Positions 1 to 64,000 of a DNA stretch of 64,000 bases are shown here, in pieces. Both the position numbers and the translations under genes were made by a program. Each line of letters opens with the position of its first letter. Position 1 is the first letter of the stretch. The stretch comes from Limnomonas spitsbergensis (Eukaryota > Chlorophyta > Chlorophyceae > Chlamydomonadales), in contig JAYJMM010000113.1 of NCBI GenBank assembly GCA_037349105.1, positions 5,642,001 through 5,706,000 on the forward strand, in the 5' to 3' direction. The notes under the pieces are model-generated. The model worked only from the letters and a program-made list of their open reading frames with translations. It ran no database searches and was not told the DNA's origin.

Positions 1-3000
1 TGGACCGGACCCGTGGATTTGAAGCGCAAGGTCAAGCGCATCGAGGAGATTGAGACGGGGCTGGCACGCTGCCACGCACTAGTCAATCCCAAGCTCAGGG
101 AGCAGGTGGGGGCGTCAAGCATCCACTAGGCTAAGCCAGGCAATGTTGTCACACTTGAATTAGGTTTGTTGCCAGGTGCTGTTTACTCCTTAGCTCAGGA
201 GGGCGTGAAGCACTGGCTGAACTTGGGCGGTCAACACTGTTGAGCTTGCATTGCGGTTGTAAGTACATGCCGGTCGACCCGGAGCTCAGGGAGCAGGCAG
301 GGGTGGAATCCATTTTCCACCCACTCTGACAGCAATTTGGAGAGTAGTCCTAGGGTCAGCATGAGGACTCCACCTGCAATTGCCTGAACCCTAAACCTTG
401 CTTCCTTGTCCTCACTTCACCCTAAACCCTTAACTCCTGCTCCTGCTTAAAGTGCACAGTATAGAGAGTGACTGCGAGACCATATCTGCGGTGTGCAGCA
501 CTGCTGTCTGCTGTGTCCAGGTTCTCCCTGGACCCTAAACCCCGACTGTGGTGTATTGTACTGCCGTCTACAATGTCTAGGATCTCCCTGATGGACCCTA
601 AACCCCGCCTGACCCTAGAATCCTGGACGGACTCTGAAAAATGAAAAGCCTCTCCCCCCCCTGGCCCTGCTCCTGGTTGCACCCTAAACACTAATGCCCA
701 ACACCTCCTGCCCCTGCCGTCGCTCCAGGTGTGCAGCGTGGAATTCGGCGATGTTGAGGTTCTGTTTGGACCCTAAACGTCTGCCCCTGGACTCCTGGAC
801 GATATCTTCAAAATAAAAAGCACCGCACCCCCCTGGCCCCTGCAGTGCCCCTGCTCCTGGTTGCACCCGAAACCCCAATCCCTGCCCCCTCCTGCCCCTG
901 CCCTTGCTCCAGGTGTACAGCATGGAGACAGGCAGCGAGACCATCACCGCGGTGTGCTTCCATCCCTATCATCCGGTGGTGTGCCTCACGGACCGGAAAG
1001 GCTTTGTCAAGGTCATGAACTACTACGACTCCTCGCTGGCGAACGCATTTCACGCAGGCCAGGGTGAGCAGCGTTGGGTTCACAAAGGGTGAACCAGATC
1101 ACAAAAAAATAATGGATATATTGAGATCTGTTAGATCCCAAGAGATCTACGGTTTTGGATTTAAGGAGATCTGATGGATCCCGAGATGTATTGCATCCCT
1201 GAACATCCCTGAACAATTTGAATTATGAAGGAAGGTCAAACATAAGTGCAGTATGTGTGTTAGTATCCTTCAGATTTCCGATGATTTGTTTAAAATCCAT
1301 AGATGTGAGTGAGCGCCGAGAAACAGGGGACCGCAAGGCATTTGTGGGTGTCCTTCATTGTCCAAACTCTTCATACATTTTGCTAAACTTTCAGCCCACC
1401 CTCCTTCCAGGCACCCCACTAAGCGACACCCGCGCCCTGCCGACACATGTCAACTTCCTCCGCCAGCTTAACGAGCAGGATGGACCGATGCTGCTGTGCG
1501 GCTCCGTGGACGGGGCAGTGCGCATCTGGAGGAATTACACGTTGAAGGATAGCCACGACATGGCAACAGCGCTCCAGGTAGGCAGGTGGTAGGGGAAGGA
1601 GGGTGAAGTAGTAACTATGCATAGGCTGCATCATATCGTATTATATGCGGTCGGTTCTAAAGAATGTTATAAATGATATCAAGTTTGTTAGGATTCCTGC
1701 TGTCTGCACACGGTCATACCTCGCACTCAGCCGACCTCCCTCCCTCCCCTGAGCAGGCCGTAACCATTCACCTGCTGCTTGCACATAGGTACGCGTAACA
1801 GTCGGCTGATCTCCCTCCCCTCCCTGATGTAGGCTGTGACCATTCACCTGCCACCTGCACACGGGCACACCTAACACTGAGCCGATCTCCCCCCCCTTTC
1901 CCAATGCAGGCCGCGACCCTTCACCTGCCACCTGCACACGGGCACACCTAACACTCAGCCAATCTCCCTCCCTACCCAATGCAGACCGTGACCCTTCACC
2001 TGCCGCCTGCACACTGTCACACCTAACACTCAGCCAATCTCCCTCCCTACCCAATGCAGGCCGCGACCCTTCACCTGCCGCCTGCACACGGGCACACCTA
2101 ACACTCAGCCAATCTCCCTCCCTACCCAATGCAGGCCGTGACCATTCACCTACCACCTGCACACTGTCACACCTAACACTCAGCCAATCTCCCTCCCTAC
2201 CCAATGCAGGCCGTGACCCTTCACCTGCCACCTGCACACTGTCACACCTAACACTCAGCCAATCTCCCTCCCTACCCAATGCAGGCCGTGACCCTTCACC
2301 TGCCACCTGCACACTGTCACACCTAACACTCAGCCAATCTCCCTCCCTACCCAATGCAGGCCGTGACCCTTCACCTACCACCTGCACACTGTCACACCTA
2401 ACACTCAGCCAATCTCCCTCCCTACCCAATGCAGGCCGTGACCATTCACCTACCACCTGCACACTGTCACACCTCACACTCAGCCAATCTCCCTCCCTAC
2501 CCAATGCAGGCCGTGACCCTTCACCTACCACCTGCACACTGTCACACCTAACACACGCCTGATCTCCCTCCCCGTCCCCCAACGCAGGCCGTGACCCTTC
2601 ACCTACCACCTGCACACTGTCACACCTAACACACGCCTGATCTCCCTCCCCGTTCCCCAACGCAGGCCGTGACCATTCACCTACCACCTGCACACTGTCA
2701 CACCTAACACACGCCTGATCTCCCTCCCCGTCCCCCAACGCAGGCCGTGACCATTCACCTGCCACCTGCACACTGTCACACCTAACACACGCCTGATCTC
2801 CCTCCCCGTCCCCCAACGCAGGCCGTGACCATTCACCTGCCACCTGCACACTGTCACACCTAACACTCAGCCAATCTCCCTCCCCGTCCCCCAACGCAGG
2901 CCGTGACCATTCACCTGCCACCTGCACACTGTCACACCTAACACTCAGCCAATCTCCCTCCCCGTCCCCCAACGCAGGCCGTGACCATTCACCTGCCACC

Positions 3001-5732
3001 TGCACACTGTCACACCTAACACATGCCTGATCTCCCTCCCTACTTAACGCAGGCCGTGACCCTTCACCTGCCACCTGCACACTGTCACACCTAACACACG
3101 CCTGATCTCCCTCCCCGTCCCCAACGCAGGCCGTGACCCTTCACCTACCACCTGCACACTGTCACACCTAACACACAGCCAATCTCCCTCCCCGTCCCCC
3201 AACGCAGGCCGTGACCCTTCACCTATCACCTGCACACTGTCACACCTAACACACGCCTGATCTCCCTCCCCGTCCCCCAACGCAGGCCGTGACCATTCAC
3301 CTGCCACCTGCACACTGTCACACCTAACACACGCCTGATCTCCCTCCCCGTCCCCCAACGCAGGCCGTGACCATTCACCTACCACCTGCACACTGTCACA
3401 CCTAACACACGCCTGATCTCCCTCCCCGTCCCCCAACGCAGGCCGTGACCATTCACCTGCCACATGCACACTGTCACACCTAACACACGCCTGATCTCCC
3501 TCCCCGTCCCCCAACGCAGGCCGTGACCATTCACCTACCACCTGCACACTGTCACACCTAACACACGCCTGATCTCCCTCCCCGTCCCCCAACGCAGGCC
3601 GTGACCCTTCACCTGCCACCTGCACACTGTCACACCTAACACACGCCTGATCTCCCTCCCCGTCCCCCAACGCAGGCCGTGACCCTTCACCTACCACCTG
3701 CACACTGTCACACCTAACACTCAGCCAATCTCCCTCCCCGTCCCCCAACGCAGGCCGTGACCATTCACCTGCCACCTGCACACGGGCACTCCACAGCTTA
3801 TGAGTGGAGCCCGTCCCGCTCCCTGCTGTTTGCTGCGGGTGGGAGCCACCCGGAGATGGTGTACTGCTGGGACCTGCACTACGAAATGTGCTCAAACATG
3901 GCAAGTGGACCATTCTACCATGTCATGAATCTATGTTTCTTTCTTGTTTTGCGGGGGGGGTCAGGGGCCAGCCTGGTGAGCCCCTAATACGAAATGTGCT
4001 TAAACATGGTTATGACAGCATCTTACCCGTAGACCATTGTATCATGTCATGGAACTAGTCTCAATTGTTTTTTTAATATTACGTAAGGCTTTCTTTTACC
4101 TTCTTTATGCTAGATGAGATTTAGCTCCTCTGATTTTTTTGACAGTGGAAGGGATGGATGTGGGAAGATCACCCCCTCTGTGATACCGCTCTGACTGGGA
4201 TTGCTGCTCCACTTTTATGAGATGGCTCTGACTGAGATGCATCGATCTCATATCTTTGAACTCTCTAAGCTCCCCTCTGCCGTCTTTCCCTCCGCAGATC
4301 CCCATGACTGCCTCGGGGACAGCCGCGCCTCCCTCTGTGGAGCGCATCGTGCTTGGGCAGACCAACCCCAACGTTCTGCTCGCCGGCTGCCACGACGCCG
4401 TCATCCGCGTGTTCGACCTGCGCAACAACCGCCAGCCAGCGCTGCAGCTGCAGCCGTTCCGCCAGCCGGCGGCCGGCATCGTGTTCGAACCCAACTGCCG
4501 GCCCAACCTGCTGGTCGCCGCGTCGGAGAAGGGCGAGATGACATTCATCGACATCCGCATGTGCACGTCTTCGCCGCCTGCGTCGCCGCTGCAGCGGTTG
4601 CCGGGCGGCGGGGAAGCTGGCGGCGACGTGGGGGGTGGCGGCGGCACTAGCAGCATCGTGCGTGTGGTACCTGCCCACAGTAAGGGTGGCCTGTCAACGC
4701 TGGTGGCGCACAACCACGCCCCGCTCATCGCAACAGGGACGGTAAACCGGGCGCCAGGCGCGGTCAACCAAGTGGTCAAAGTGTGGACGGACCAGGGGGA
4801 GGCGGTGAGTGTCTTTGTGTGCAGCAGCTGCGACCGGGCAGTGTGATTATTCAAGTTGCAATGAGATGCAGTCTTTCCCTTTCTCTAGCTCCTTCAAGTG
4901 TGTGTGGGGTGGGGGGGGCATCTGCAGGGCTTGTTGGTCTTGCTGTTTGGTTGCTGTTGATCGCGCCGCTGCAGTACTGGTAGAGGTATGGCGCTTTTGT
5001 GCTAATTGTCAATAAATGGATGAGCCGGATACGGCACCTGTGCAATCAATTGGCCACAGTGCATGCGGTATTGGATTGCATTTGCTTGTGCTATTTCCGA
5101 TAGTCCCTCAGGACCATGCGTGTGTCATAATTGCTGCTGTCTGATGCTGAACCTCCACTCGTTAGCCAAGGTTATATTAATCATTTGATTTCATATACCG
5201 GTGTTGTATTGGTTGTTTTTGTTGCAGTAGCAGCATGCCCACCCCCAAGTGTTTACAGGAAAGGGCCAGGCAGTCGTTTCCTGTTGTGCAAGAATGCACC
5301 TGACCAAATGTCCAAGCACGAGCACGCGTCCTGCTGTCTTGCCTGACCCTCACCGGCCTGAACTGTGCCCCCAAACCTAACATGGCAGGTGGTGCTTGCA
5401 CCGCACATTTACTTTTCCTGTACCACTCTTGCACTGCTCATGTACCGCTCACAAACTGCTCCTGTACCGCTCATGTACTGCCCTTGTACCTGCAGGTTGG
5501 CGCCATACGTGCGCAGTCCCCGTTTGTTCCCTCCAACAAGGTCGGCCCCGTCACCTGCATGAGCTTCCACTCCTACCAGCCCCTGCTGGTCGCAGCCGGG
5601 CTGGACTCGGTGTGCACGGTCTACGCAGTCGACAGGTCTACCGTCGGCGGCATGACAGGCGATCGCAGCTTCAGCTCGAGCCGGCCGTCGTCGGTGACGG
5701 GGTTCTCCTCCCTATCGTACAACCCGTCTTAG
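1..5732 (+). CDS. RAPTOR: Raptor, TOR complex 1 scaffold, C-terminal WD40 part (5' end outside window)
   Basis: Raptor recruits substrates to the TOR kinase in TORC1. Exons read as 1-105, 913-1063, 1411-1577, 3754-3900, 4298-4804 and 5496-5732 (TAG at 5730), about 437 residues. Every junction keeps frame. The blocks follow the C-terminal WD40 propeller of plant RAPTOR in order: ITAVCFHPYHPVVCLTDRKG, then GSVDGAVRIWRNYTLKD, VYCWDLHYEM, LAGCHDAVIRVFDLRNN, LLVAASEKGEMTFIDIRM, HNHAPLIATGT, and finally VGAIRAQSPFVPSNKVGPVT followed by MSFHSYQPLLVAAG. Exon 1 (KRKVKRIEEIE...) lies just before the propeller. The HEAT and caspase-like N-terminal parts would be upstream of the window. The tail after the last blade is rich in Ser (SFSSSRPSSVTGFSSLSYNPS region), a possible phosphorylated stretch. 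Intron 4 appears to use a GC donor (ATG|GCAAGT at 3901). Intron 3 is a 2.2-kb minisatellite built from the exon-4 acceptor. Identification is strong; the borders are hand-made. Confidence 0.88.
430..765 (+). repeat. Two decayed copies of the Raptor exon-2 acceptor and exon start, inside intron 1
   Basis: The true exon 2 begins at 913 after TTGCTCCAG with GTGTACAGCATGGAGAC. Around 434-500 the intron reads CTCCTGCTTAAAG, TGCACAGTATAGAGAG, then CTGCGAGACCATATCTGCGG, which parallels GGCAGCGAGACCATCACCGCGG in the exon. Around 723-755 it reads CGCTCCAGGTGTGCAGCGTG. Both look like mutated duplicates of the acceptor plus exon 5' end. Much of the rest of intron 1 (106-912) is degenerate CCCTAAACCC-type sequence. 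Confidence 0.6.
1720..3780 (+). repeat. 75/78-bp minisatellite made from the Raptor exon-4 splice acceptor and exon start
   Basis: About 27 tandem units fill intron 3 and run into exon 4. Each holds a pyrimidine tract (CTCCCTCCCTACCCAATGCAG or CTCCCTCCCCGTCCCCCAACGCAG type), an AG acceptor, then GCCGTGACCATTCACCTGCC, which is also the first 20 bases of exon 4 at 3754. Early units are 75 bp with TACCCAAT; later ones are 78 bp with CCGTCCCCCAAC. Only the last unit continues into coding sequence (CACGGGCACTCC). In most units a TAA falls in the exon-4 frame 13 codons after the acceptor, so use of an upstream copy would truncate the protein. The two unit lengths are multiples of three, which leaves long meaningless open frames on the other strand. 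Confidence 0.9.
3985..4055 (+). repeat. Copy of the Raptor exon-4 end and donor region in intron 4
   Basis: Exon 4 ends TACGAAATGTGCTCAAACATG at 3900, followed by GCAAGT. About 108 bp downstream, 3988-4008 repeats this with one change and is followed by GTTATG. The next stretch (ACCATTGTATCATGTCATGGAA) also resembles the bases after the real donor (ACCATTCTACCATGTCATGAA). So the copy carries a GT donor while the apparent working donor is GC. Confidence 0.7.
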
Positions 5733-7065: not shown

Positions 7066-10000
7066 ATGGCTCCTGTGTACTTGATGGATTTCGCAGTAAG
7101 TTGCCTCGATACGCGGCAATCTTCTCAGTTTGGCTTCCAAGTCACCTAAATGGAGATCTTGCCACGGTCAGTGTCCGTCATTGCGGGTGAGGTATTCGTA
7201 ATGGGTGGACAATTCCTTCATTGTATTCCTGTCCAGTAATTTGAAGGTAGGCTCCCTAGCCAGGAAGACAGTTGATGTTGCCGTCTCACAGTGTGTCCGG
7301 CTTCGGTGATACTGATCCTTCTGCCCTGGCAATGCGAAATTCCGTTAATTGGTCGTGCTAACTTTGTCCCAAACATCCCAAATAATGTTCCCGTTGTTTT
7401 CAGAACTTGACCTAGTTTACTACCATGGACTAGGGGCAGGCATCTGTGGGTGTGAATGTTGCCTTTGCCACTTGGATGACTGATACAATATGAGGCAAAA
7501 GCCCTCTTAGCCCTCTACTCCCTGACATTTTAACGTTGATCAAAAAACGAAGGAACACACAAAATCGAAAGGACAGACCACCAGTAAATAAAACATGGAA
7601 AATCACAGGCTTGATTCTCAACTGACCCAGTTCTCAGCATGGAACCCTCAGTGAGTGTGGCATGACAGTAGTATGACGTGGTACTGGCATGACTGCGCTT
7701 AGTTTGCAATTTCTATTTTTTGCTACACCATAACAATTGGGATCTTACTCTGTAGCTGTCAAAATCCCGATTGGAAACAGACCGTGACCCCCCCATAGCT
7801 GAAGGCGCAAGCAGCACGGCTGGCCACATCTGCAGCCTCCAGCCCTAGGGCAGAGAGTAGCTGACATGTAGCGGAGTCAAGCAAAAGCAAGCAGTAATTG
7901 TTGACGTGGCGAAGTGGCTGAATATAATACATGGATATGTATTCTACCTCTTCAGCTGCTTGCCGTAAATGTAGACCATGGATTACCCGTTTTGTAACAT
8001 TGTACTAGTTCATGTGAATGGGCGCACATGCGTTTGCACTTCAATTCACCGCTAGCATGGCATGCATGATCTCTGGCGCAGGCTGTTGCCGAGGAACTGT
8101 TTGGACTCCGAACCCTGAACCCTAAACCCCAATGCCGTGCGCAGTGTTTCAAGCCCCCGGATGATCTGAAGATACAAGCCGCGGACTTCGAAAAATATGC
8201 GCAAAATTGGCCGGTCAGTTCCTGATCTGTGTTTAAAACCTGCTTAGCCTGCTAGCTCAGACAGCGGCCATCCAGCTGTTGGTTCATATTGTCTAGTTTG
8301 TGGCGGGCCTTGTCTATCTCTTGTCATCCTTGCTTTGGTGTTGTCAAGAGCGAAACATGCGGACCTGCCTAAAGGAGCCTCTCGTGTTCCTTGCTGTTGC
8401 AGCAATATAAAAACGCCGACGTGAAAGACTTCATGTGGAAGGTGAGGGCACGCGTCAAACAGCAGGTTGAGAGGATCTTCGAGGCTTGTAAGATTCATAG
8501 GAAGTGAAGCACGCCCTGCATGATACAAGCTGATGTCATGCCCAGGCAGCTGGCTGGGTGTGCGGTCTAGGAACTTCAGTTCTCACATCTGAGGTCAAAA
8601 AAAATGTTTGTAAATGGAGTATGCCAGGAACCTTTTTGAAATTTTGCATACAAGCGGTGGAAGGTGTGTGTGTAAACAAGGAGTCGCACACCAGTGCACG
8701 CTAATGCGGAACCCTTGGTTGGGCCATGCCATGATATTTAAGAAAAGGCACAGCCTATGGCCCAAGCCACATCCACAACTCAATTCCTCACTTGTGTTTC
8801 TACTCCCTGGCAGGTGTTCGTGAAGAGCGGGATCTCGCCTGAAACAACGTACTTGCCGGCCTGCACGCATCCCAAGTTCGTGGATGCGGCACCGGGCGCC
8901 ATAGGCATCAATGAGGCGCGCAAGGAGGCGGAGATGGTCATGTGAGTGCTGCTGGCGGCTGACGGCTGGCGGCTGCGCACTTCCCCCCCACACCCCCCAT
9001 CCTGCCTTGTCTAGATAATTTCCCTTTTAGACGCGCCCCTCCCTCGCCCATGCTGAACTGCATTTTCTTCTCGATGCGGCATTTGCCGCGACCGCCCTGT
9101 TTCCTATACGGTCACGCTCAGACGTTACAAGTGCGGGATAATAGGCTCGGTGCGTCACACCTTTCACCCCATGAAAAAGGCCGATGTATACCCTTACATG
9201 GTGTCTGTTCTTCTTTCCTTGAAAGAAAGGATGAATACTGGTATGACAACTACGCCCTATGCAAGCCTGCTCCACTGGTGCGTTCGTCTTATTTTCTAGA
9301 ATTTGAAGGGAAAGTATTTTATATAGAACTGTATACGGCAGGGGTGTGACGCTTCAGGAAGGAGTGGTGCATGGGCCCAAGCTGCATCCATGCCCTTTCC
9401 GTCATAAAAACAAAACAGGGAAATGGCCAATCTGATCTTTCTGGCTCCAGCCCAACCAAGGCCACAGTCCCACCCCACCCCGCCCACCCCACCTCTGCAG
9501 ATGCATCAAGCACCTGGTGATTTGTATATTATCGTCTCAGTGTATTTCAGTATGCACCGCACCACCTCCTCTGTGCTGGTAGGCAGGCCTAAAGAGACAT
9601 AAGCTTGCCCGGACGACGGCCGGTGGCCCTAGCATCAGGGTGTGCTGTATCTGGTCCCTATGGGTGCAGGCCATGATGCAGCTGAATTGCAGCTGGATTG
9701 TAGCTAGATTGCTGCTGAAGCACTATCCATTGATCGGCAATGCGGCGGGAGATCTTGCTTTCCCCTTCTACCATCCTACCCCATGTACAGTGAATATGAT
9801 GGCTAGATACCGGTATGTAGACCTTTGCCCTGTTTGATTTTAGGGCTCCTTGCCTGCTTGATTGCTGATGTCCATTTCTAAATAATCCACTCCCTTGGTC
9901 CATTGTCCAGGCTAATAAGATGCGACAGAAGAGGGTGCCCTGATAGCGAAATTGAAGGTTTCACCTTGGCTTTGGATTGCCATGCACCACCATGCACCAC

Positions 10001-13000
10001 GCACTATGCACCATGCAGCACCACGCACCATCCTGCACCACACACCATGCAGCACCGCACACCATGCACCAGCAGCACCATGCACCATGCAACACCATGC
10101 AGCATGCACCATGTAGCACCACACACCATGCACCATTACGCAGCACTACGCACCATGCACCATGCAGCACTACGCACCATGCAGCACCATTTGTTTTTTG
10201 CTTTAGTTTTCATGGAACATCTCTCTCCCTGAGTGCGATGCAGGTGTGGTGTGGTTTCAGATCTGCTTGAGCGCACCGGTATCGCCCCCGAAGACATTGA
10301 CATCCTCGTCACCTGCACCTCCATATACTGCGCCACGCCCTCCTTGGCGTCCATGATCGTCAACAAGTGAGGACAACCTCCCCCAGGGCATGGGGGCGCT
10401 CCTGCTCTGTAAGAGCTGTTCCTTCAGGAGGGCTCAATACTCGGGTGTCATTTTGCCGGAATGTTAAGAATGGCTTTTCCCAACGGCTTTTCCCAATGAC
10501 TTTTCCCAACGGCTTCAGTGACTTTTCCTGGTGACTTTTCCTAGTGACTTTTCCTGGTGACTTTTCCTAGTGACTTTTCCTGGTGACTTTTCCTGGTGAC
10601 TTTTCCTGGTGACTTTTCCTAGTGACTTTTCCTGGTGACTTTTCCTGGTGACTTTTCCTAGTGACTTTTCCTGGTGACTTTTCCTAGTGACTTTTCCTGG
10701 TGACTTTTCCTGGTGACTTTTCCTGGTGACTTTTCCTGGTGACTTTTCCTGGTGACTTTTCCTGGTGACTTTTCCTGGTGACTTTTCCTGGTGACTTTTC
10801 CTGGTGACTTTTCCTGGTGACTTTTCCTGGTGACTTTTCCTAGTGACTTTTCCTGGTGACTTTTCCTGGTGACTTTTCCTGGTGACTTTTCCTGGTGACT
10901 TTTCCTGGTGACTTTTCCTGGTTACTTTTCCTTGTGACTTTTCCTAGTGACTTTTCCTAGTGACTTTTCCTAGTGACTTTTCCTGGTGACTTTTCCTAGT
11001 GACTTTTCCTGGTGACTTTTCCTGGTGACTTTTCCTAGTGACTTTTCCTGGTGACTTTTCCTAGTGACTTTTCCTAGTGACTTTTCCTAGTGACTTTTCC
11101 TGGTGACTTTTCCTGGTGACTTTTCCTGGTGACTTTTCCTGGTGACTTTTCCTAGTGACTTTTCCTGGTGACTTTTCCTAGTGACTTTTCCTGGTGACTT
11201 TTCCTAGTGACTTTTCCTAGTGACTTTTCCTAGTGATTTTTCCTGGTGACTTTTCCTGGTGACTTTTCCTGGTGACTTTTCCTGGTGACTTTTCCTAGTG
11301 ACTTTTCCTGGTTACTTTTCCTGGTGACTTTTCCTGGTGACTTTTCCTAGTGACTTTTCCTAGTGACTTTTCCTGGTGACTTTTCCTGGTGACTTTCCCT
11401 AGTGACTTTTCCTAGTGACTTTTCCTGGTGACTTTTCCTGGTGACTTTTCCTAGTGACTTTTCCTAGTGACTTTTCCTGGTGACTTTTCCTGGTGACTTT
11501 TCCTGGTGACTTTTCCTGGTGACTTTCCTAGTGACTTTTCCTGGTGACTTTTCCTGGTGACTTTTCCTGGTGACTTTTCCTGGTGACTTTTCCTGGTGAC
11601 TTTTCCTGGTGACTTTTCCTGGTGACTTTTCCTAGTGACTTTTCCTGGTGACTTTTCCTGGTGACTTTTCCTGGTGACTTTTCCTAGTGACTTTTCCTAG
11701 TGACTTTTCCTGGTGACTTTTCCTCCTGTAAGGGATGGTCACCTGGGTTAGCCTTGCTGATTCCCCCATGCGCCCGGCTCTACACCTACCCTTTTGAAAG
11801 AGAGAGAATGCATCACCTTCATAATGCGGTGCATCTCAGGGTTCAGCAGGTGCACCGTCTCTATTGCTTGGTCATAAACTGCATTTGGTGGAATTGTTTG
11901 CCTGGCTTCATTCCTCTGCCAAAGTCTGTCCATGGCTTCCCAGTCTCTGTTGCACATCTGTATGTTGCCTAGGTTCAAGATGCGTCGTGATATCCACAGC
12001 TATCACCTAGGGGGCATGGCCTGCGGTACCAGGGTGGAAATCACCCTTTTCATACCTCTGCTGATTGTTTGCTGCCTGCCTGGTCGTAGGTTCAAGATGC
12101 GCAATGATATCCACAGCTACCACCTAGGCGGTATGGGCTGTGGAACAGGCGTCGTGGCCGTCAGTCTCATCAGGGATCTGCTGATGGTGCGTGGCAGTTG
12201 GAGAGAAGCTAGGCCCCTGCAGGTTTCGAAAACGGAACAGCGTGGGTGTCAGTCTCATCAGAGATTTGCTGATGGTACATGGCAGTTGGAGAAAAGCTCT
12301 AGCTTGTTGTCCTAGAGGTTTCAAAGACAGGTCCATCTGGGTTTCAGCCTCATCAGGGATCTGCTGATGGTGCATGGCAGGCAGAAGGGAGGTTAGGCCC
12401 CTCGAGCCCTGTAAAGGGGTGATATTTCAAAAGCAGGGCAGCATGGGCCCCAGTGTTATGAGGGATCTGCTGACAGTGTGTGGCAGCATGGGCACCAGTG
12501 TTATGAGGGATCTGCTGACAGTGTGTGGTAGCATGGGCCCCAGTGTTATGTGGGATCTGCTGACAGTGTGTGGCAGCATGGGCCCCAGTGTTATCAGGGA
12601 TCTGCTGACAGTGTGTGGCAGCATGGGCCCCAGTGTTATCAGGGATCTGCTGACAGTGTGTGGTAGCATGGGCACCAGTGTTATGTGGGATCTGCTGACA
12701 GTGTGTGGCAGCATGGGCCCCAGTGTTATGAGGGATCTGCTGACAGTGTGTGGCAGCATGGGCCCCAGTGTTATCAGGGATCTGCTGACAGTGTGTGGTA
12801 GCATGGGCCCCAGTGTTATGTGGGATCTGCTGACAGTGTGTGGTAGCATGGGCACCAGTGTTATCAGGGATCTGCTGACAGTGTGTGGCAGCATGGGCCC
12901 CAGTGTTATCAGGGATCTGCTGACAGTGTGTGGCAGCATGGGCACCAGTGTTATGAGGGATCTGCTGACAGTGTGTGGCAGCATGGGCACCAGTGTTATC

Positions 13001-42000: not shown

Positions 42001-42004
42001 CATA

Positions 42005-48555: not shown

Positions 48556-48559
48556 CTCC

Positions 48560-48679: not shown

Positions 48680-51600
48680 TTACAGGTGCGGCCCCCCCTG
48701 CACCATGCGCTCCACTGTATCTGCGCCGACGTACTTCCCACCATCCATGAACTTGGTGAAATTCTGCGAAAGAGCGCGATGGGTAGAGCAGGCATATTCA
48801 CTTATGAGTGCAGAAAACAACAGTTGTAGGCTCATTCAATGTTCGCATCCATTTGGAATCTGCTTATATAAATATCCTGAAGTGAAATGAATCCACTACT
48901 TACCGAGTTACCCTGGCCTGCATTTCCCTACAGTATTCCCCAAGCCTAAATCCATTGTAAAAAAGGCGGCAGAAAAAACTCGGCTTCCCACCTTTGCAAA
49001 CATGCCGCCCAGATTGTCCAGCTTCTCATCAAACTCCCCCTTGTCCTTCCATGATGCCTCAGGCAGCAGCACCGATGACGGCACACCCGTGCAATCAGTA
49101 GGCACCTGAAGCATAGGAATGCCTTGCTCTTCAGTGCCTCGGCTCAGATGAATGCCCTGCTCTTCAGTGCCACAGCTCAGATGAATGCCTTGCTCTTCAG
49201 TGCCACAGCTCAAAGAAATGCCTTCCTCTTCAGTGCCTCAGCTCAGAGGACATCCATGGCTTGGAATCAGCAGTATGATCAGAATCCAGGCTTAGGCAGA
49301 ATACCTCCTTCAACTCACCCTATGGCTGGCTGCCCATCAGGCCTGCCCCCGAAACCGGAGCTGGGGCAGGAACAATTGGGACAGTCATACCTGCAGTCCG
49401 AAGACGCTCGTCGAGACAAACTTCGCCGAAGCCAGCTCGCCGGAGTGGATAGCGTCCACGATTGCACGTGTGTGCTTGAGGCTGATGCGGCTGCCCACGC
49501 CGTACTGTCCGCCGGTCCATCCCGTGTTTATGAGCCAGGCGGTGGTGCCGTGCTCCTGCATCTTCTCTGACAGCATCGCTGCATACTTCATGGGGTGCCA
49601 CCTGCAGGCAGACACAGGATTACCAGTCAGCCAGCCATCTTGTGTAGTACTGGTATAAACTTAAATTGTTGCATACAATACAGGTGAGTTGGGTAAGGGG
49701 ACAGCGTTCGACATCAAACGCGTTGAAGTTTTTAAGTAAATGATGCACACTAAATACTAAAATACGGCAAACAGTTTGACATTCCACACTGGAAACAGAA
49801 TGGAAGGGATACAGAGGCAGTGGGGAGGACATAAATAGGCTCAAAAGTGAGGCAGCATATATAGTTGTATCATGGGTACCAACCGTATAAAGATTAGTGC
49901 AGGCAAGAGTGCATGACCATAATTACTGACAGTTCAGGCTGAGACTTACGCAAGGAAGGCGGCCCCAAAACAAGCGCTGAAGGTGGCCTCCGGCTCGTTG
50001 ACGCCCTGCTCTGTGCCGGCAATCTGGACATAGCAGACACGGGAGGTCACTCGATAAGGTTGGAAACAGGAGACACAAGGTGTGTGGGGGTGGGTGGGAA
50101 GGGGGGGGGTGCGAGTCAAAAGATCCCCCATCCAGCCTGGGGCATGGCTCTCACTGTTTCTTAACTTTACTGTCGTCCCCATGGGCCCAGTGGTGGTTGC
50201 CCAGCAGCCTGCGGAAGTCGGTCTGGTGTGCCTGCAAGAAACACTGGCATGGCGTGTAGAGGGGCTCACCTTTGCCGTGTATCCAGACACAAACCAGTAC
50301 ATGGCCTGATCCAGGGTGAGCTTGCTGACTGGGGGCAGCACTCCAAACGCATCACAGCACAGGAGCATGACGTTCCTGCAGGAAGGGGCCGGCAGCAAGG
50401 GAGCAAAGGGTCAGCCTCGGGCACCACCCTCAGCCCCAGCATGCCTGCACAGCCGCAGGATGCCCTGATATCCGACAAGCGTAGGCATCAGGTCAACATG
50501 CAGATTGCGTCAGGAACACAAGAATGCACATTCCTGTCAACCTACGTGCTTGCACTCATGCAGCTATATATCTAGGAAGCGCCATAACACTCGGCAATTA
50601 TCTGGAGGTCCACCCACAATCTTTATTTGGGGGGCATAAGACAACAATTCAGCGACAGCAAGGCCTTCGTTCCCGGGGGGGGGGCTGGGGGGGGCTTGAT
50701 GCATCAAGCCTTGCTGCTTGGGCCACCCGTAGGCCGGTTGAAGTCCCAGCCGTTCCCATAAAAGTGGTCTGGCACACACTAAAGCAAACAATGTCACCTA
50801 CTTTGGGTGTGGTCCGGTGCAGGGAATTCGCGCATTGGATATGAAATCAATGGGGTAGCTGGCGCGTGTGTTCTCTGTGAGGCTAGTGCCTTCGAAGTCT
50901 ACGTCCAGGGTGTCATTGCAGAAGTCCACATTCTCAAGAACCGTGCCATGGCGGATGGCCTGGAAGATCTCAGGCTCCTTAGATGCCTGGGTGAAGCACA
51001 AGAGGGGAACATAGGTTTTCAAATTAAAAATGGCCGATTTGTTTTCAAGAGGGAGAATGCGCTACAGAGAGGAGCTAGGCCTGGAAGATCTCAGGCTCCT
51101 GGCATGCCTGGGTGAAGCACAAGAGGGGAACATCAAGGGGGGAGAATGCGCTACAGAAAGAGTCCCTGGTAAAAAGAGGGGAGCATCACGGGCGTTAATA
51201 CATTGCCAAAAGCCCCAGATTCCAAGCGCATTCATCAACCAGCCAGTCAGAGAAAAGGAAGACACTGCAGCAGTTGGGTGCTGTGTCTTCCCTCTCTTTG
51301 TCATAGATAGGTAAATATACAACACGAAGAATCGCTTCGAATGTTCTAGTTGGTCGATCCAGCCCATGCAGGTCACCAACACCGCAAGCTCAGCTATGAC
51401 ACAGATGGAGTGCGCACAGACGGTGTCTTGCTGCCTCTTGTCCGCACCTGCAGATTGATGCACTTGGCGTAGCAGCCTCCCTCGATGTTGAAGACGCCCT
51501 TGTCGCCCCAGCAGTGCTCGTCGTCACCAATCAGGGGGCGGTGCGGGTCCGCGGACAGGGTCGTCTTCCCAGTGCCTGGATCAGCAACGGTAGGAGGGCA

Positions 51601-53828: not shown

Positions 53829-54698
53829 CTAGAGCGCAAACAACATGCTCAATATTACAGTCTTTCTCTTTCTCTTTCGAGGTATGTCAAAGCAGACCCA
53901 TGGTCAAAGGAAACGCAACCGGTCCCTGTCAGCCGGAGTGGCGGAGTGCCCGAGCGACGACAGGTCACAGATCTAGAGGAGGATCTGCCAACCGAGTTTT
54001 AGACTACCAGCCACATCCTTCCCATGCTCTATCTACCTTTGTTCTCTCGGACGAAGTTCATGCGCAGGCTGCGAGGTGAGGAACTCGATGATCCTTCAGA
54101 CATGCGGCCAATGTGTGGACAACGTCATGATGAGTCGGTTGTCGTGTCGAAGTTGTTAAATCAATTTATTATGTCAAAGTCTCTTGCCGAATCACAGATA
54201 CTGCAGTGCGATGTGCATCACTCTTTCATGCTCACCCCACATGTCGTGGGATAGGTAAATTGTGTTGCCAGGGGCAACAGGGTGCGTGACGGGCACTCAC
54301 TAGCACTCAGATGGAACAAGGCAAGTAGCTCACCAGACCGTGGGCTTGAGTGCGTCACATGGGATAGAGACCTGACTGAGTACCGTCTCGGATAGAGGCA
54401 TTGGAGCTGCATTCCCGGAGGTGCTGTTCCTGAGGAGTTGACGCACTGCGACTGTGCAACACGTTGCATGGTGGTGTACATTGCAGTCTCGTATCGGATT
54501 AGAGTTGCAGAACTGTATGCGCTCCCGTTCTGGTATCCAACGTATAAGCGCTGTTCTTTATAGGCTACCATGGTAGATCCTAGTCAGGTTTGCGTCAGAG
54601 TGACTCAGCCCTAAAACCCTGACTTCTGGTTCTCAACTTCACCGCGGCCTCTTCAAATTTTGCTACGCCAATATTTCACAGCATCCATCAGCATCGAA
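53829..54698. other. Intergenic or 5' region shared by PEPCK and the small 54.7-kb gene
   Basis: The missing first PEPCK exon or exons should lie here. A 117-codon minus-strand open frame (54218-54571, MVAYKEQRLYVGYQNGSAYS) with several Met codons, including MQRVAQSQCVNSSGTAPPGM, is a candidate leader exon. No donor-acceptor pair gives a clean frame into 53828. Confidence 0.35.
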
Positions 54699-55680: not shown

Positions 55681-56361
55681 CAGGCCGATCAGGATTGTGG
55701 ACTATTTCATTATTATGGCAAAAAATAAAGCTGGATTGTGAATGACAGGTTTGACCACCCCCAACCTGGTCCACAGCTTTGTCAGTTTTTACATTTCTTT
55801 TTAACCTCATTTTTTTAGATTTCCTCTCCCCCCCATTTTCAACCTGTATATCATACCGGTACTCAGACCTACGTTTAACCGTCTCAACTGTACTGAAACC
55901 AACACCATATAAAACCCCATACTGCCTGGATGGTAGTTGCTGCGCTTACCAGTGTTTACATCCGCTACTATATAGGTTGAACTAGTTTGAGCTTGGTTGG
56001 GGGGAGGGGGGTAAAAATGCTCCGGTGGTGGAGATCGGAGATGGCTTAGACGTTTAATACACATAAGCCATGAATAACACGACAAATCGGCAACAAGCCG
56101 GCACCACCCCAACACAGTAGCAATGTCAACCTCCATGAAGGTGACAGTAGTAGCAACCGATCACAGTGGAGTTCATACCAATCCATACAGCCGAAGGAGG
56201 AAGCCTTCAGGTGATAGCTTTTGCAGACTGGGAAAGAAAGCAATGCCCATTGCCACTTACCTTTATGCGGACATACAAATTTGTTGACTTACAAGTAGCC
56301 TCAAATAAAGCTCATGCTCTGCACACACGACGTTGCTGAAGGCAAAAGTTCGTACAGATGT
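55681..56361. other. Intergenic between two convergent genes
   Basis: 3' regions of the small plus-strand gene and of the Argonaute gene. An AAAATAAAG stretch at 55720 is a possible 3' processing signal for the former. No gene is seen. Confidence 0.4.
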
Positions 56362-59300
56362 TCAGGCTGCTGACTCATAGCAGTGTCCCCTCCAGATGCT
56401 ACCAGCCTCTTTGTTGCAACATCCCCAGTCTTTCTCGCCATCTGAGCCACCTTGTGAGCAAGCTTTAGAACAGGGGGTTTGCTCACGCTCCTGAGCATGC
56501 ATGGCAGGGGCGGTGCTCATGGAGCACATCCTTGATATTGCCATTGAAGCAATGCAGCATTTGGGATTTTCAACAGTTGCATGAAACCTGCCATGGTGAC
56601 TTGCATAGCAGTGTTATGTCCCTTATGCTATGTTTCATGCCAAGCGTCGCACCTGTGGCACTGGCCGGACAGGTGGCATAGGTCGTGCGTGAGTTGCTGC
56701 ATGGCGTCTGCAGAAAAGCCGAACTCGTTGACTAGGACAGTATACCTGTTGTAGGGCATTACGTTGGGTATGGGCAGCGCCGCAAATGCAGCGGGCAGGT
56801 TACAAGGGGACACGGGGCAACAGCTCCGTAGCACATGGACATTGGTTCATGTCACGGGGGCACGACATTATAATGCCTGTGGGGGCAGCTTGCTGGTGTG
56901 TGGTTGCCAGGAGAATGCTCCTAGGGACTGGACATATCATATTTGTACCAAAGGGACATTAGGCTAGATCCAGGTAACCAAGAGTCGAATGCAGGGACAT
57001 GCATGCCAGAGGCGCAATGCACACTTACTTGGACGGGGTGTCGGTGCCGGCAGAGCTGGGATGGCTCTTGAGGAAGAATTCGAATCCAGAGCAGTCCACC
57101 ACGTCGTCATCCACAATGGTGCCGGGCATGACATTGCCGGACCTGCAACAGGCGGGCAAGCAGCATAAGGCAGGTGAAGGTCAAAAGGTGGACTGTTTAC
57201 TTTGTATGGTGCAACAGCTACAATTCAGCTACATCTCGGCGTACCGCAATGAGGGCCTGTTGCAGCAAGCCCTGCTGCTCGGGCAACCAGCTGTAGGCCG
57301 GTCAAGGTTTGGTCCCATGAGCGTAGTGATGGCTGCTCAGGGGCCTGCCCAAGTCGGTCTGTAGGGCACTCAATAAACACAGCAAAGCATCCGCATCTGG
57401 CTCAGGGGATATGGACGTCCTGGCGAATCTAGCCTTGGTAGTTTGCCGTCTCTTTAAGACAGCAAATTCCGGAGCACAGCACACACCCGCACACCGCATG
57501 TCCTGGCAGGTCCTGCAACTCTTCTGACACAGCTCGGGTGACAGAGTGCAGATCTTTGTTAACCTTGGGGCGCATAGGACCCATGGTATGGAACACTAGC
57601 GTAGAAAATAATCAAACCTCATTCAGTTTCCCATCGTCCCGGTTCATATGTTTATTGCTCACTTGTGCGTGTTTGCAGTGTCCCCAGGCGTGGGGAAGAG
57701 TTTGATCTTGTGGCCTCTGGACACGACCACAAAGACGACCTTGGGATTATACCCAGGTTTTAATGAGCTGCAGGCCTGGTTTTGAAAAGGAGGGGACAGG
57801 AGTCAGAGGCTAAGGACCATCCCAGAGCTTGTGGCCCATACGTCAATTTTTTCGGAGCCCACAGCACAGGGGCAGGCGGTCGATTTCATGGCAGACGCAT
57901 CCCTATCTGCTTGCGAGTCCCCTTCTGGCCATATGCCTGTCACGACCTGACTGCTTCTCACCCGCTTGATCCCCTTGAACTCAGCGGCCAGCACCGCGTC
58001 ATAAGACGACTCCGGGACTCCATCGCGGTACATCAAGATGATCTGAGGCAGAGGTGAGGGGGGGAGATCCAGCAGCAACGAGGCTTCAAACCGGATTTAA
58101 AAGTTGAAGACTTGTTGTCCCCCATATAATTTTAAGGTGCCACTCCCTATCTGAACCCTGTTAACGTCTAACGCTGTGGTATTTTTCATCTCTCCTCCCT
58201 CATTCGTCTTCTTATCACTGTTTTGTCTAACCTGACATGAACGAGTGACGTTGCAAAGTGTCAGCCCTCCGTTAGTTCTACATTGAACCTGCCAGGGTCA
58301 TGTTGGGCAGTTTTTGCTTAGCTGGATCAGAGGGATCCAACGCTTTTCATAAACCAGGGCAGGATCCATCGCGGAAGATTAGCAAGCTAAGCAGGCAGAA
58401 CAAACTCTACCTCAGGTAAGTTGCTGTTATTGGCTGCAGCATAGTCCTCTATGAGGCCACACGCTGCATCATGCATGCCGTAGATGAAGTGGTCGCTCTC
58501 GCCAACCTGTGAGGGGCATGTGACAAAGCAGATAACCTCAGGACATGTGTGTGACTAGGCGGAGAAGGGGGTGCTCTAGCTCCAGTGGGAGGCAGACAGG
58601 CAGTGCTATGGCTAAACCCTACCCCCCCCCCTTCCCTGTGCCAAGCTTTCCTCACCTGCACCAGCATCTGCGGCTGGCTCACCCTCACCGCTTTCCTGTC
58701 AATATCAGAAGCAGGGAGAAAAAAACTGAAGCATGGCTCATCAGGCATCACGCAGAATGGACAACGCTTCAGGTCAACCAGCAATAAGCAACCAGCAACG
58801 CTCAGAACTTAAAAAACAGGCTTTTCCTCATACACCCAGCTCTTCCATGGTCTTGCCTTTATCTTTATATCTTACCGGTCTAGGGTGCCCACTAGCCCTG
58901 CGTAGGTAATGGCAGCGTTGCCCCGGCCAGCCTGGGTGGACCTTGAAACATCAGCACCCATCACCTGCGTGCGCGTGTTAGGAGGTACACTGGCGTCAGT
59001 CCACATTCAATGCTGGAAGGGTGGAGGTATGAAGTGGGGAATGGGTCTCCGCATCTGGCCCTCAATCGGCAAGGTCCACAATCCAAGGCAAAGTCAGGCA
59101 GGGCATGGACAGATTCGAGTCTTAAGTAAGGCTGCCTCAGAAACAACGGGACAGGGTCAACAAGATGAACGCTTGGACCTCAGCAACTGCACCAGGCAGA
59201 TATCCAAGGCGGCAAGGTGCTTATCATAATGAACACATCCACCATCAGGGTCTCACACTTCAACACACCATGAAGTGTTTATCTCCAAGGAAAGAGGCCC

Positions 59301-62300
59301 ATTCGCTGGGCATGCCTGCCAGCTCAGCAGTGATGCCGCCCAGCTTGATGTTGATTTTTAGAGCCAGGTGTCTGCAGTACTGGTCTAGCTTCCTGCGGGA
59401 GGGGACAGAAACAAACGGAGGGTCAGAAGGAAAATTGAGTGAAAAAAATAGCGACATAACGGTATCACTTAGTGAAAAACAAGAAAGCAACGTAACGATA
59501 TTGCAGGTGGGTCACAAGTTTATTTAATTATTTTTCGAAAATTATTCGAAATTTATGGTAGTCCTGGGCCATGAATACACCATCATAACATACCAGGAGG
59601 CATTGGTCGAGGGAACCTTACATGTGGGTCAGGCCGTGGGCGCTTTTGGCCCAGTGCCTGACCCAGATGCAAATATGCCCCCCCCTCACCTGCTCTCCTC
59701 ATGCCTGCTGATGCCTGCCCTCGTGGGCTTGCAACACTGAGTGGCAACTCCCAGCACATTGTGCCCCACGCGCTTCACTTCATTGTAGACGTCATCACCT
59801 GGGTGCAAAAACCCACCCATAACTTACCATTGGTCAGGACTAGGGGAGGGGGGTACAAAGTATCCGCTGTCCAGAAGGATGCTGTGGTCTCTCATGAATC
59901 CAGGGGGGAGTACCGACTATGCAGCAGGACGAAATTATGAATTCCTGAACCCTGCTCATCCCTACCCACCACTTCATACCTGCTCATCCCTACACACCAG
60001 TTCATACCTGTTAATCCCTACACACCAGTTCATACCTGCTCATCCCTACCCACCAGTTCATACCTGCTCATCCCTACCCACCAGTTCATACCTGTTAATC
60101 CCTACACACCAGTTCATACCTGCTCATCCCTACCCACCACTTCATACCTGCTCATCCCTACCCACCAGTTCATACCTGTTAATCCCTACACACCAGTTCA
60201 TACCTGCTCATCCCTACCCACCACTTCATACCTGCTCATCCCTACCCACCAGTTCATACCTGCTCATCCCTACCCACCAGTTCATACCTGCTCATCCCTA
60301 CCCACCAGTTCATACCTGTTAATCCCTACACACCAGTTCATACCTGTTCATTCCAACCCGCCAGTTCATCCCTGCTTACCTGCTACTTCAGGCAGCACCA
60401 CGAGGAGCAGCTCGGCCACCTTGCCTCCACATGCGGCTTCTGCGGCATGGACGGCCTTCTGCATGAGTGGCTCCACATCTGAAACAGACACACTGCTGGT
60501 CGCCCAGAGCGTGGGGGCCGTGCTGGGTACGGGGCATCCCTGAAACTCAAGCTTGCCATCCAGTGAGGATCTCAAAGCTTCCAGACCTGAGGGTGCAGCC
60601 ATTCATGGGCGTGTTCAGATATATAAATGTACTACGTCATGGTCAGTTCAGATAACAAAGGATACATCATAAGCGTGAAGCCGTGAACAATAAACAAACA
60701 TGACGTGTTGGGTTAAGTCAGATATACATATATCAAAATAGCATTTCATGGGTAAGTTCAGATAAACATATGTCAGGTCATGGCGAGCCTGTAGAGGCAG
60801 CAACACGTTCAGCTGTAGCAGTGGGTAGACTGTCATGCCCAGGGGTGTGCGCATCAGGTATCCAGTATGGGGAACTAGGTATCCATCCCACAGCACAATT
60901 GTGCGAGAGGAATTGCATCAAGCCAGCACACAGCAATACCCTGGTGCAGATGCACATGCAGCCGCCATAGTGGCCTTAAATGATGCTGGAAGATGGATGC
61001 AGCATGGAATCAAATCCATTATGAGCGATACAACATTTCTCAACCACTCTAGTCCCCCCCTCTGGTCTCTGCCGCAGCAGCACCCTCGAGGAACCTCCTG
61101 ATGGCCCTGGCCCCTAGCCGTCACCTCACAACTCACCTGCCCTCTCAGCTGCACTTCCCTCAAGCAGCATGAGCACCGCCCCGCTGCTCCACTGACCCGC
61201 TTCCTTGGAAGCCGCATGGGGTCGCCACACGCCCTCGCCCCCCGTTGACACCTGACTGTCCCCTTTGTACTGGAGCGTGGGGCCCAGGATGCGCCGTGCT
61301 GCAACCTTGCAGAGCAGGTGTGGAACCGAGGGGTGGACAGGGCTACATATACAACAGGAGACATCGTGCAGAGCAGGTGTGGAACCGAGGGGTGGACAGG
61401 GCTACATATACAACAGGAGACATCGTGCAGAGCAGGTGTGGAACCGAGGGGTGGACAGGGCTACATATACAACAGGAGACATCGTGCAGAGCAGGTGTGG
61501 AACCGAGGGGTGGACAGGGCTACATATACAACAGGAGACATCGTGCAGAGCAGGTGTGGAACCGAGGGGTGGACAGGGCTACATATACAACAGGAGACAT
61601 CGTGCAGAGCAGGTGTGGAACCGAGGGGTGGACAGGGCTACATATACAACAGGAGACATCGTGCAGAGCAGGTGTGGAACCGAGGGGTGGACAGGGCTAC
61701 ATATACAACAGGAGACATCGTGCAGCACGGCCATTCAGCCATTCCGGCTGCACGATGCCTCGGCCCTGTACCATCACCACGCTACGTACCATGCCAGACA
61801 ATTCTTCTCCCAGCACTCGACCAGAAGCTTGCCATCCATAGTCACCACAGTCCTACCAGAAGCTAGCCAGAAGCCAACCCAAATCCATCGACCAAAAGCC
61901 AACCAGAAGCTAGTCAGAAGCCAGAAGCCAAGGCCAATCAGAAGCCAACAAGAAGCTATCCAGACGCCAACCAGAAGGTAGCCATATTCCCACCGTGAGG
62001 GGCTTGAGACTCTCCAGCTGCAGCCCAAACTCCTGCATCACGGACCCACTGACGGAGCGCACTGTGCTGATCAAAGCCACAGTCAGACGGCGAAGGTGCT
62101 CCTCAGGCCTAACCAATGCCTACAAGTCAGCAGTGCAGGACAGGTCAGGGTTTAGGGTTTAAGGACTTTGTTGACGATGCTTCCCAAAGCACACACACCT
62201 TTTTTTAGTCCTGCATGCGGTGGTGTAATGTTCCAGAACTGGTGTAATACACATATTTTGAAGGGTGTCATAACAGCAATCAGGCCTAAGGTGTCCCCTG

Positions 62301-62413
62301 GGCGGATTCTGCCTGACCTCTGCTCTCTGCCTACCTTCTTGCCCAGTTCCCTGATCAACTCCGCTTGCTGCTTCTTATCCTTGTCCTGAGTGCGGCGCTG
62401 AGACTTGACCACG
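56362..62413 (-). CDS. AGO: Argonaute, L2-MID-PIWI part (5' exons beyond the window)
   Basis: Small-RNA-guided silencing effector. Minus-strand exons from 5': 62335-62413, 61994-62119, 61137-61305, 60380-60586, 59690-59798, 59269-59392, 58876-58964, 58656-58695, 58411-58506, 57962-58042, 57663-57775, 57029-57142, 56653-56745 and 56362-56530, in phase throughout, about 535 residues. The linker/MID part has EFGLQLESLKPLTVAARRIL and GPTLQYKGD...GQWS. PIWI: ELLLVVLPEVAG, EVKRVGHNVLGVATQC, HLALKINIKLGGI, VMGADVSRSTQAGRGNAAIT (first catalytic Asp), IILMYRDGVPESSYDAVLAA (next Asp), IKRACSSLKPGYNPKVVFVV, NVMPGTIVDDDVVDCSGFEF, KYTVLVNEFGFSADAMQQLT. The last exon reads MCSMSTAPAMHAQERE, where the family has a YYAHL-type catalytic His; an alternative frame reads LAHKVAQMARK. 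The exact C-terminus is unsure. The PAZ and N domains would lie beyond 64000. Confidence 0.9.
57205..57325 (+). repeat. Dispersed ~110-bp element, copy in an Argonaute intron
   Basis: GTGCAACAGCTACAATTCAG, then CTACATCTCGGCGTACCGCA, GTTGCAGCAAGCCCTGCTGC and CAACCAGCTGTAGGCCGGTC. It shares the order of motifs with the copies at 28741 and 52790. A shorter relative (GCCTTGCTGCTTGGGCCACC, CGTAGGCCGGTTGAAG) is at 50707-50742. Confidence 0.65.
59940..60375 (-). repeat. 28-bp minisatellite derived from an Argonaute donor site
   Basis: About 15 units of CCTGCTCATCCCTACCCACC, AGTTCATA (plus view). In gene sense each unit reads GAGCAG|GTATGAACTGGTGGG, with TAGGGAT following. The real donor of exon 60380-60586 reads GTAGCAG|GTAAGCAGGGATGAACTGG and directly adjoins the array. 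So the units carry donor-like CAG|GTATGA sites. Confidence 0.85.
61306..61730 (-). repeat. 59-bp perfect tandem repeat at an Argonaute acceptor
   Basis: Seven essentially identical units of GAGCAGGTGTGGAACCGAGG, GGTGGACAGGGCTACATATA, CAACAGGAGACATCGTGCA. In gene sense each unit ends CCACACCTGCTCTGCA. In the unit touching the exon this continues AG|GTTGCAG, making the acceptor at 61306. In the others it continues CGATG, so the AG is absent. Near-perfect identity implies recent expansion. Because 59 is not a multiple of three, all plus frames are open; these frames are not genes. Confidence 0.93.
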
Positions 62414-62599: not shown

Positions 62600-64000
62600 G
62601 CAGGAAACACAGGCCGAAACACTTCCGACGACTCACATGCATGCCCTTAACCCTGACAACTCACGTGCGCACCCTAAACCCTGACCACTCAAATGCACAC
62701 CCTAAACCCCGACAACTCGCATGCATACCCTACACCCTGACAGTTCACATTAACACCCTAAGCCCTGACAATTCACGTGCACAATATAAGCCTGACAATT
62801 CATATCCACACCCTGACAACTCACATGCATGCCCTTGACCCTGACAACTCACGTGCACACCATAAACCCTGACCACTCACATGCACGCCATACACCCTGA
62901 CAACTCACATGCATGCCCTTGACCCTGACAACTCACGTGCACACCCTAAACCCTGACCACTCACATGCACGCCATACACCCTGACAACTCACATGCATGC
63001 CCTTGACCCTGACAACTCACGTGCACACCCTAAACCCTGACCACTCACATGCACACCCTAAACCCCGACAACTCGCATGCATACCCTACACCCTGACAGC
63101 TCACATTAACACCCTAAGCCCTGACAATTCACGTGCACACTCTAAACCCTGACAATTCATATCCACACCCTGACCACTCACATGCACACCCTAAACCCTG
63201 ACCAGTCACATGCACGCCATACACCCTGACGACTCACATGCATGCCCTTAACCCTGACAACTCACGTGCACACCCTAAACTCTGACCACTCACATGCACA
63301 CCCTAAACCCCGACAACTCGCATGCATACCCTACACCCTGACAGCTCACATTAACACCCTAAGCCCTGACAATTCACGTGCACAATCTAAACACTGACAA
63401 TTCATATCCACACCCTGACAACTGACATGCATACCCTAAACCCCGACCACTCACGTGCACACCCTAAACCCTGACCACTCACATGCACGCCATACACCCT
63501 GACAACTCACATGCATGCCCTTGACCCTGACAACTCACGTGCACACCCTAAACCCTGACCACTCACATGCATACCCTACACCCCGACAACTCGCATGCAT
63601 ACCCTACACCCTGACAGGTCACATTAACACCCTAAGCCCTGACAATTCACGTGCACACTCTAAACCCTGACAATTCATATCCACACCCTGACCACTCACA
63701 TGCACACCCTAAACCCTGACCAGTCACATGCACGCCATACACCCTGACGACTCACATGCATGTCCTTAACCCTGACAACTCACGTGCACACCCTAAACTC
63801 TGACCACTCACATGCACACCCTAAACCCCGACAACTCGCATGCATACCCTACACCCTGACAGCTCACATTAACACCCTAAGCCCTGACAATTCACGTGCA
63901 CAATCTAAACACTGACAATTCATATCCACACCCTGACAAATCACATGCATACCCTAAACCCCGACCACTCACGTGCACACCCTAAACCCTGACCAGTCAC
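62600..64000. repeat. ~28-bp telomere-like repeat array with higher-order structure, in an Argonaute intron
   Basis: Units such as CACCCTAAACCCTGACCACT, CACATGCA run to the window end. Variants (CCTTGACCCTGACAACTCAC, AACACCCTAAGCCCTGACAA, CATACACCCTGACAACTCAC) recur in fixed order. The landmark CACATTAACACCCTAAGCCC reappears at about 62748, 63107, 63346, 63622 and 63862, so blocks of 240-360 bp have been duplicated. CCCTAAA is the plant-type telomere heptamer, but it never occurs here as pure tandem heptamers. The array fills the intron upstream of the exon 62335-62413. Confidence 0.9.

Follow-up and report, generated by a model that had tools for sequence, protein, structure and literature searches.

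The window analysed here is a 64,000-bp stretch of the Limnomonas spitsbergensis genome (positions 5642001-5706000 of contig C113; the genome comprises 260,226,709 bases in 124 contigs). Six spliced genes were modelled in it: the 3′ part of a Raptor gene, genes for a 3-ketoacyl-CoA synthase (KCS), a CorA-like transporter, PEPCK and an Argonaute whose 5′ end lies outside the window, and a small gene without a known family. The five genes that could be named are as follows.

1..5732, plus strand: Raptor gene, 3′ part, 6 exons; open frame across exons, same exons in a paralog (L029)
7066..22338, plus strand: KCS gene, 14 exons; open frame; FAE1_CUT1_RppA, 6e-79
25728..38334, plus strand: CorA-like Mg2+ transporter gene, 13 exons; open frame; CorA, 5.4e-42
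48680..54103, minus strand: PEPCK (ATP) gene, 15 exons; open frame; PEPCK_ATP, 8.5e-208
56301..62413, minus strand: Argonaute (Piwi) gene, 14 exons, 5′ end beyond the window; Piwi, 6.9e-64

The models contain 59 introns (118 junctions), 58 of them GT-AG and one GC-AG, and the frame is open in all six genes. Pfam supports five of the six; for Raptor it gives WD40 only, and the name was taken from solved structures, with plant Raptor 1 as the top match (E 2.5e-41). The Raptor introns measure, in order, 807, 347, 2176, 397 and 691 bp. All 13 CorA exons recur, together with their splice sites, in a paralog (L031), and the Raptor splice junctions likewise have counterparts at the corresponding places in L029. 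Among the named records in the matches listed, PEPCK is most similar to that of Chlamydomonas eustigma (72% identity), followed by Haematococcus lacustris (71%) and Dunaliella salina (69%). The junction counts given below exclude the Argonaute region upstream of 62413 and a BTB/WD40-like gene (labelled by eye) at ca. 44670-47066 of the minus strand, the frame of which joins uncleanly near 45080. Upstream of the first exon in the Argonaute model, at 62627-64000, an array of 28-bp units extends over at least 1.37 kb and continues past the window end. Two related retroelement-like coding-frame fragments were recognised by eye on opposite strands, at 23589-24698 and 42000-42830; a scan of viral contigs retrieved no relative of the former.

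A sequence-only reading of the window had claimed that exon edges of Raptor, KCS, CorA and Argonaute, and one or two of PEPCK, have extra copies inside the neighbouring introns, and had proposed that each edge be compared with its own intron. We searched the adjoining intron with the 30-40 nt of exon that border each junction, using equal lengths of other introns and dinucleotide shuffles as nulls (the exon-only test). With 40-mers, p<0.01 was reached at 16 of the 118 junctions against other introns and at 15 against shuffles, where ca. one is expected, and the proposed comparison thus bore the claim out in part. Matches were distributed among KCS (6/26), CorA (4/24), Raptor (4/10), PEPCK (1/28), Argonaute (1/26) and the small gene (0/4); the last three genes together account for 2/58, and the sole Argonaute match has p=0.06 against shuffles. 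Copies that span the junction were then looked for by local alignment (a BLAST self-comparison had covered only 11 junctions). Such copies were found at 27/118 junctions at p<0.02, with ca. two expected. Nineteen of these 27 junctions, 10 acceptors and 9 donors, have a score of at least 100 and are referred to as convincing; nine belong to KCS, five to CorA, four to Raptor and one to PEPCK.

82..313, plus strand: Raptor donor 106, downstream junction copy 297 (spanning identity 0.73, p 0.010; exon-only p 0.005)
434..957, plus strand: Raptor acceptor 913, upstream copies 729, 676 and 452 (identity 0.90, 0.72 and 0.72)
1704..3783, plus strand: Raptor acceptor 3754, 78-bp array with 26 junction copies upstream (spanning alignments)
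3864..4028, plus strand: Raptor GC donor 3901, downstream copy 4009 (identity 0.71, exon reach 37 nt)
11959..12128, plus strand: KCS acceptor 12090, copy 11973 (identity 0.85); a genome search with the KCS protein also matches this region
12148..13251, plus strand: KCS donor 12187, downstream 95-bp and then 45-bp array, 23 copies (spanning alignments)
13752..14037, plus strand: KCS acceptor 13998, copies 13851 and 13762, both without AG (spanning alignments)
14086..14837, plus strand: KCS donor 14102, degenerate downstream copies 14209-14812 (best score exactly 100, p 0.010; exon-only not significant)
15392..15606, plus strand: KCS donor 15428, copy 15601 (identity 0.76; exon-only p 0.005)
16361..16443, plus strand: KCS acceptor 16435, copy 16394 with 9 nt of exon (spanning alignment; exon-only not significant)
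17088..17753, plus strand: KCS acceptor 17718, five upstream copies, 17599, 17478, 17366, 17254 and 17108 (identity 0.79-0.88)
17796..17974, plus strand: KCS donor 17833, copy 17950 (identity 0.79; exon-only p 0.005)
18760..18902, plus strand: KCS donor 18769, copy 18877 with 9 nt of exon (identity 0.94; exon-only not significant)
26604..26701, plus strand: CorA acceptor 26691, copy 26629 with 11 nt of exon (identity 0.81; exon-only not significant)
27738..27938, plus strand: CorA acceptor 27899, copies 27801 and 27763 (identity 0.82 for both)
28042..28388, plus strand: CorA donor 28073, copy 28383 without GT (identity 0.83)
30948..31445, plus strand: CorA donor 30965, eight downstream copies to 31420, first spacings 47 bp (spanning alignments)
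33511..33832, plus strand: CorA acceptor 33808, copies 33610 and 33527, both without AG (exon-only p 0.005; 0.025 with another null)
50957..51132, minus strand: PEPCK acceptor 50986, copy 51107 (identity 0.95, 30 nt of exon)

Fifteen of the 19 convincing junctions also pass the exon-only test; the four that fail are the donors of KCS introns 7 and 12 and the acceptors of KCS intron 9 and CorA intron 1, and in three of these the copy holds merely 9-11 nt of exon. The nearest copy lies 41-310 nt from the junction (median 117), and copy number ranges from one decayed copy up to 26. The range from a single decayed unit to tens, as described in the sequence-only reading, was therefore found, while the fading of similarity with distance, also described there, was significant in two of the five families with at least four copies (rho -0.66 and -0.42). 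Among the genes named, the claim held for Raptor, KCS and CorA, and PEPCK has one clear copied edge, acceptor 50986. It did not hold for Argonaute, where 4/26 junctions pass p<0.02 with weak matches (best score 89), none of them convincing; arrays adjoin the Argonaute junctions 60379 and 61305. The intronless histones, which had been offered as a contrast, have no junctions and are therefore uninformative. Histone genes are very numerous in the genome (150 scored matches of 443 candidates, several of them clustered). We conclude that the extra copies of exon edges in adjoining introns are largely real.

The matches are local, same-strand and anchored at the exon edge. When the exon probe was moved 0, 20, 40 and 60 nt into the exon, matches fell from 16/115 to 8/111, 1/99 and 0/77 in the window, and from 29/108 to 20/102, 9/92 and 3/78 in the chaperonin gene pairs described below. 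Two controls were nearly empty: the intron across the exon gave 0/104 and 1/96 matches in the window and the chaperonin pairs, respectively, and the reverse complement 1/115 and 1/108. The steep fall with exon depth and the background-level controls fit a local tandem duplication over an edge, as had been proposed, and not dispersed elements, whole-exon copies or base composition. Chance or low complexity was rejected, the matches being far above both nulls, and whole-exon tandem duplication with both splice sites was rejected because matches have all but vanished by 60 nt into the exon. Introner elements were likewise set aside: edges match their own intron beyond other sampled introns, and the distinction from introners drawn in the sequence-only reading is upheld. 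Nor did we find intron gain within exons in the two genes compared, since each of the 6 Raptor and 13 CorA exons has a single counterpart in the paralog. By eye, the 3′ flank of CorA was also seen to hold a copy of the stop-codon region, ca. 100 bp further downstream (38307-38450), indicating that local duplication crosses other coding/non-coding borders too.

The paralogs allow one to follow individual junctions. In the Raptor paralog the exons are the same, with a nucleotide identity of 80-92%, and the introns measure 165, 231, 663, 750 and 413 bp; copies are present at 4/10 Raptor junctions in the window versus 0/10 in the paralog. No copy of acceptor 913 was detected in the paralog, whose intron measures 165 bp at this place. 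The 78-bp array, any copy of which would lead to a premature stop if used, is missing there, and its units align to the single junction of the paralog. In copy 1833, the second from the far end of the array, TGATGTAG precedes GCTGTGAC, the same as in the paralog, while at the working edge CAACGCAG precedes GCCGTGAC; AACGCAG is common to this edge and the 15 nearest copies. Array and exon edge may have been homogenised together; alternatively, a newer copy may have taken over as the working site. Donor 3901 is GC in the window gene, while its copy at 4009 and the donor of the paralog are GT. The intron downstream of this donor, intron 4, is longer in the paralog (750 versus 397 bp) although the copy sits in the window gene; it thus follows that intron length is not simply tied to copies. 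Whether or not copies are present, the open frames of the Raptor and CorA paralogs match, in agreement with the proposal that such duplications leave one intact exon.

Both of these paralogs are located on contig C118 at ca. 1.684-1.745 Mb, and C118:1684200-1745500 forms a block paralogous to the window for Raptor and CorA. The KCS search retrieved more distant relatives only, the most complete on C92. Together with the paired chaperonin genes, the block on C118 suggests a large-scale duplication.

The sequence-only reading had expected the phenomenon genome-wide. As a sample from elsewhere in the genome, we used the chaperonin (Cpn60/TCP1) family, which was picked before any look at its introns. 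Fourteen loci were taken from 72 matches and 13 were used; single matches on C82 and C97 were left out. For three paralog pairs, conserved blocks whose splice sites are common to both members were taken as exons. Of 112 junctions (56 introns), 108 were tested; two small exons of pair A that appeared doubtful, one block lacking a model and junctions whose splice sites scored low had been dropped. Copies were detected at 25/108 junctions at p<0.01 (9/34, 6/32 and 10/42 by pair). The seven other chaperonin genes were modelled from profile matches, some of the models being approximate; 12/36 neighbouring match pairs that were non-contiguous in the profile or overlapping were dropped, 24 introns were kept, and copies were found at 9/48 junctions, with 1/48 in the reverse-complement control. 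Occurrence beyond the window is thereby confirmed for this family. The Raptor and CorA paralogs are below the other sets, with 3/34 junctions at p<0.01 (0/10 and 3/24). All sets pooled give 53/308 junctions, about one in six, with the qualification that the other-intron samples differ somewhat between sets. Among 88 homologous junction pairs, copies are present in both members in 5, in one in 25 and in neither in 58 (Raptor and CorA: 0, 10 and 24; chaperonins: 5, 15 and 34). Judged by the paralogs, junction copies thus reflect mostly recent local change.

In summary, the copies are local, same-strand and edge-anchored, they occur in several unrelated genes in different parts of the genome, and they are mostly present in one of two paralogs. 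We consider it highly probable that short tandem duplications over junctions leave fossil junctions in introns, hidden from mRNA by exon definition. Short tandem duplications would arise in genes, the nearest copies lying 41-310 nt away. When a duplication spans a splice junction, the exon-adjacent copy would serve the exon and the other would become a fossil junction in the intron. Exon definition would pair the closest acceptor and donor flanking the exon, so that the exon-proximal copy would be chosen at either end, and one rule would account for both intron ends. This choice would keep the duplication hidden from mRNA. Some copies may subsequently be expanded into minisatellites by unequal exchange or slippage, and others would decay. 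The presence of arrays at intron ends may mean either that junctions are hotspots or that the junction, being conserved, persists as a master copy.

Tandem repeats (units of at least 10 bp) make up 31.4% of intron sequence, against 0.7% of intergenic and 1.8% of exon sequence. Out of 26 merged arrays, 16 lie within 20 bp of a junction, with 2.6 expected under uniform placement; without junction-crossing arrays, 11/21 lie near ends (2.0 expected). In the chaperonin introns with both ends scored, the corresponding figures are 14/30 (2.6 expected) and 8/24 (1.75 expected). Tandem arrays of any kind thus show a strong bias towards intron ends, and this speaks for growth at edges. One can go further and propose that junctions are recurrent duplication hotspots genome-wide, so that introns lengthen from the edge inward and exon borders move outward over new copies, leaving fossil splice sites behind; we put this forward tentatively and consider it less likely than not. 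Outward-walking edges are hinted at by the Raptor array, since copy 1833 is paralog-like and the working edge matches the nearest copies. An alternative is neutral turnover of tandem repeats anywhere in introns, with junction copies merely reaching over the edge and without edge preference. Introns are indeed repeat-rich overall compared to intergenic DNA, and in Raptor, KCS and CorA local copies were found for 27-31% of junction-spanning 40-nt windows, for 22-36% of interior windows up to 400 bp from the junction and for 73% deeper, i.e., interiors carry them at least as often as junctions. A higher duplication rate of junctions than of intron interiors was therefore not established. However, interior rates are inflated by junction-derived copies themselves, and since arrays started at an edge fill the interior, this count alone does not discriminate between them. 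Arrays adjoin junctions far beyond uniform placement even when crossing arrays are removed, and we consider edge-blind turnover unlikely.

With respect to intron length, the sequence-only reading had stated that introns are built from junction copies and grow at their edges. Copies are present, with a convincing one in 17/59 window introns, but they account for 12.0% of intron bp when aligned and 17.4% when spanned, and "built from" is an overstatement. Median intron length is 944 bp with junction copies and 295 bp without, a comparison that is partly circular; between paralogs, the length ratio rises non-significantly with copy difference (n=45 introns, rho 0.20, p 0.19). Growth at edges thus has the placement of arrays in its favour, while copies as the driver of length were not established.

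If used in splicing, 79 of 85 copies are predicted to produce a premature stop, four a frameshift and two an open frame. Since use would break the protein in 83/85 cases, the real sites presumably prevail. AG or GT/GC is retained in 77% of copies (mean of 19 families), compared to 66% expected from identity squared, and there is thus no sign of spare sites being purged. Both observations could also be read as evidence that the spare sites are functional, either as decoy or poison sites that regulate productive splicing or as alternative exon edges. The retention excess is small, though, and carries no significance figure, the copies occur in genes of unrelated function, and they are mostly confined to one of two paralogs whose frames are both open; we therefore regard a functional role as quite improbable. 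Introner-like or other mobile elements that carry splice sites could be invoked in view of the two retroelement-like fragments in the window. Since the copies match their own junction, and not other sampled introns or the other strand, an origin from such elements is hardly credible.

The kind of structure is already known from the "mirage" minisatellites of amphioxus. In Adh3 and the globin genes BflGb6 and BflGb9, the portion of the report considered describes tandem repeats over the 5′ or 3′ exon-intron boundary, in which many copies have AG/GT and repeat number varies, and regular splicing is undisturbed according to RT-PCR (PMC3087553). As in the part of that work considered, the repeat unit in the alga spans the exon-intron boundary (19/118 junctions), and both boundary types are affected, with 10 acceptors and 9 donors (PMC3087553). 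The amphioxus cases described there concern few genes and come with RNA and haplotype data, whereas the alga, known here from genomic sequence alone, provides about one in six tested junctions, several genes and a paralog comparison (PMC3087553). We take the junction copies for the mirage minisatellite phenomenon, whose host is in this case a green alga and which is common among the genes sampled. In Chlamydomonas reinhardtii and Volvox carteri, introns are reported to have the highest repeat density, and repeats to be more frequent close to intron-exon junctions; this survey counts repeats, and the portion considered mentions no junction copies with exon sequence (PMC3887541). Tandem duplication is established as a source of new introns, and in the AGGT model, as presented in the sections considered, tandem genomic duplication is tolerated since splicing removes it (PMC3443670, PMC2891723). 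The same tolerance via splicing applies here, but in that model a new intron arises inside an exon, while in the alga existing introns gain copies of their own ends (PMC3443670, PMC2891723). At human exon-intron boundaries, changes in the number of internal tandem repeats alter introns (PMC2812944, in the part considered); there one deals with segmental duplications and altered transcripts, while frames and exon edges are kept in the alga.

No earlier report of junction copies in a green alga was found among the titles and abstract openings listed from the open-licence literature. As far as searched, four points are new: the lineage of the host, the frequency of the copies, the evidence of turnover that comes from paralogs, and the connection between junction copies and intron-end arrays. 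What had been known from a few genes of amphioxus is thus common in the sampled genes of a distant eukaryote. Two questions become testable: how the spliceosome recognises the correct splice site in a series of nearly identical copies, and whether intron lengthening takes place mainly at the ends. Gene prediction in genomes of this kind can also be expected to run into numerous false exon edges.
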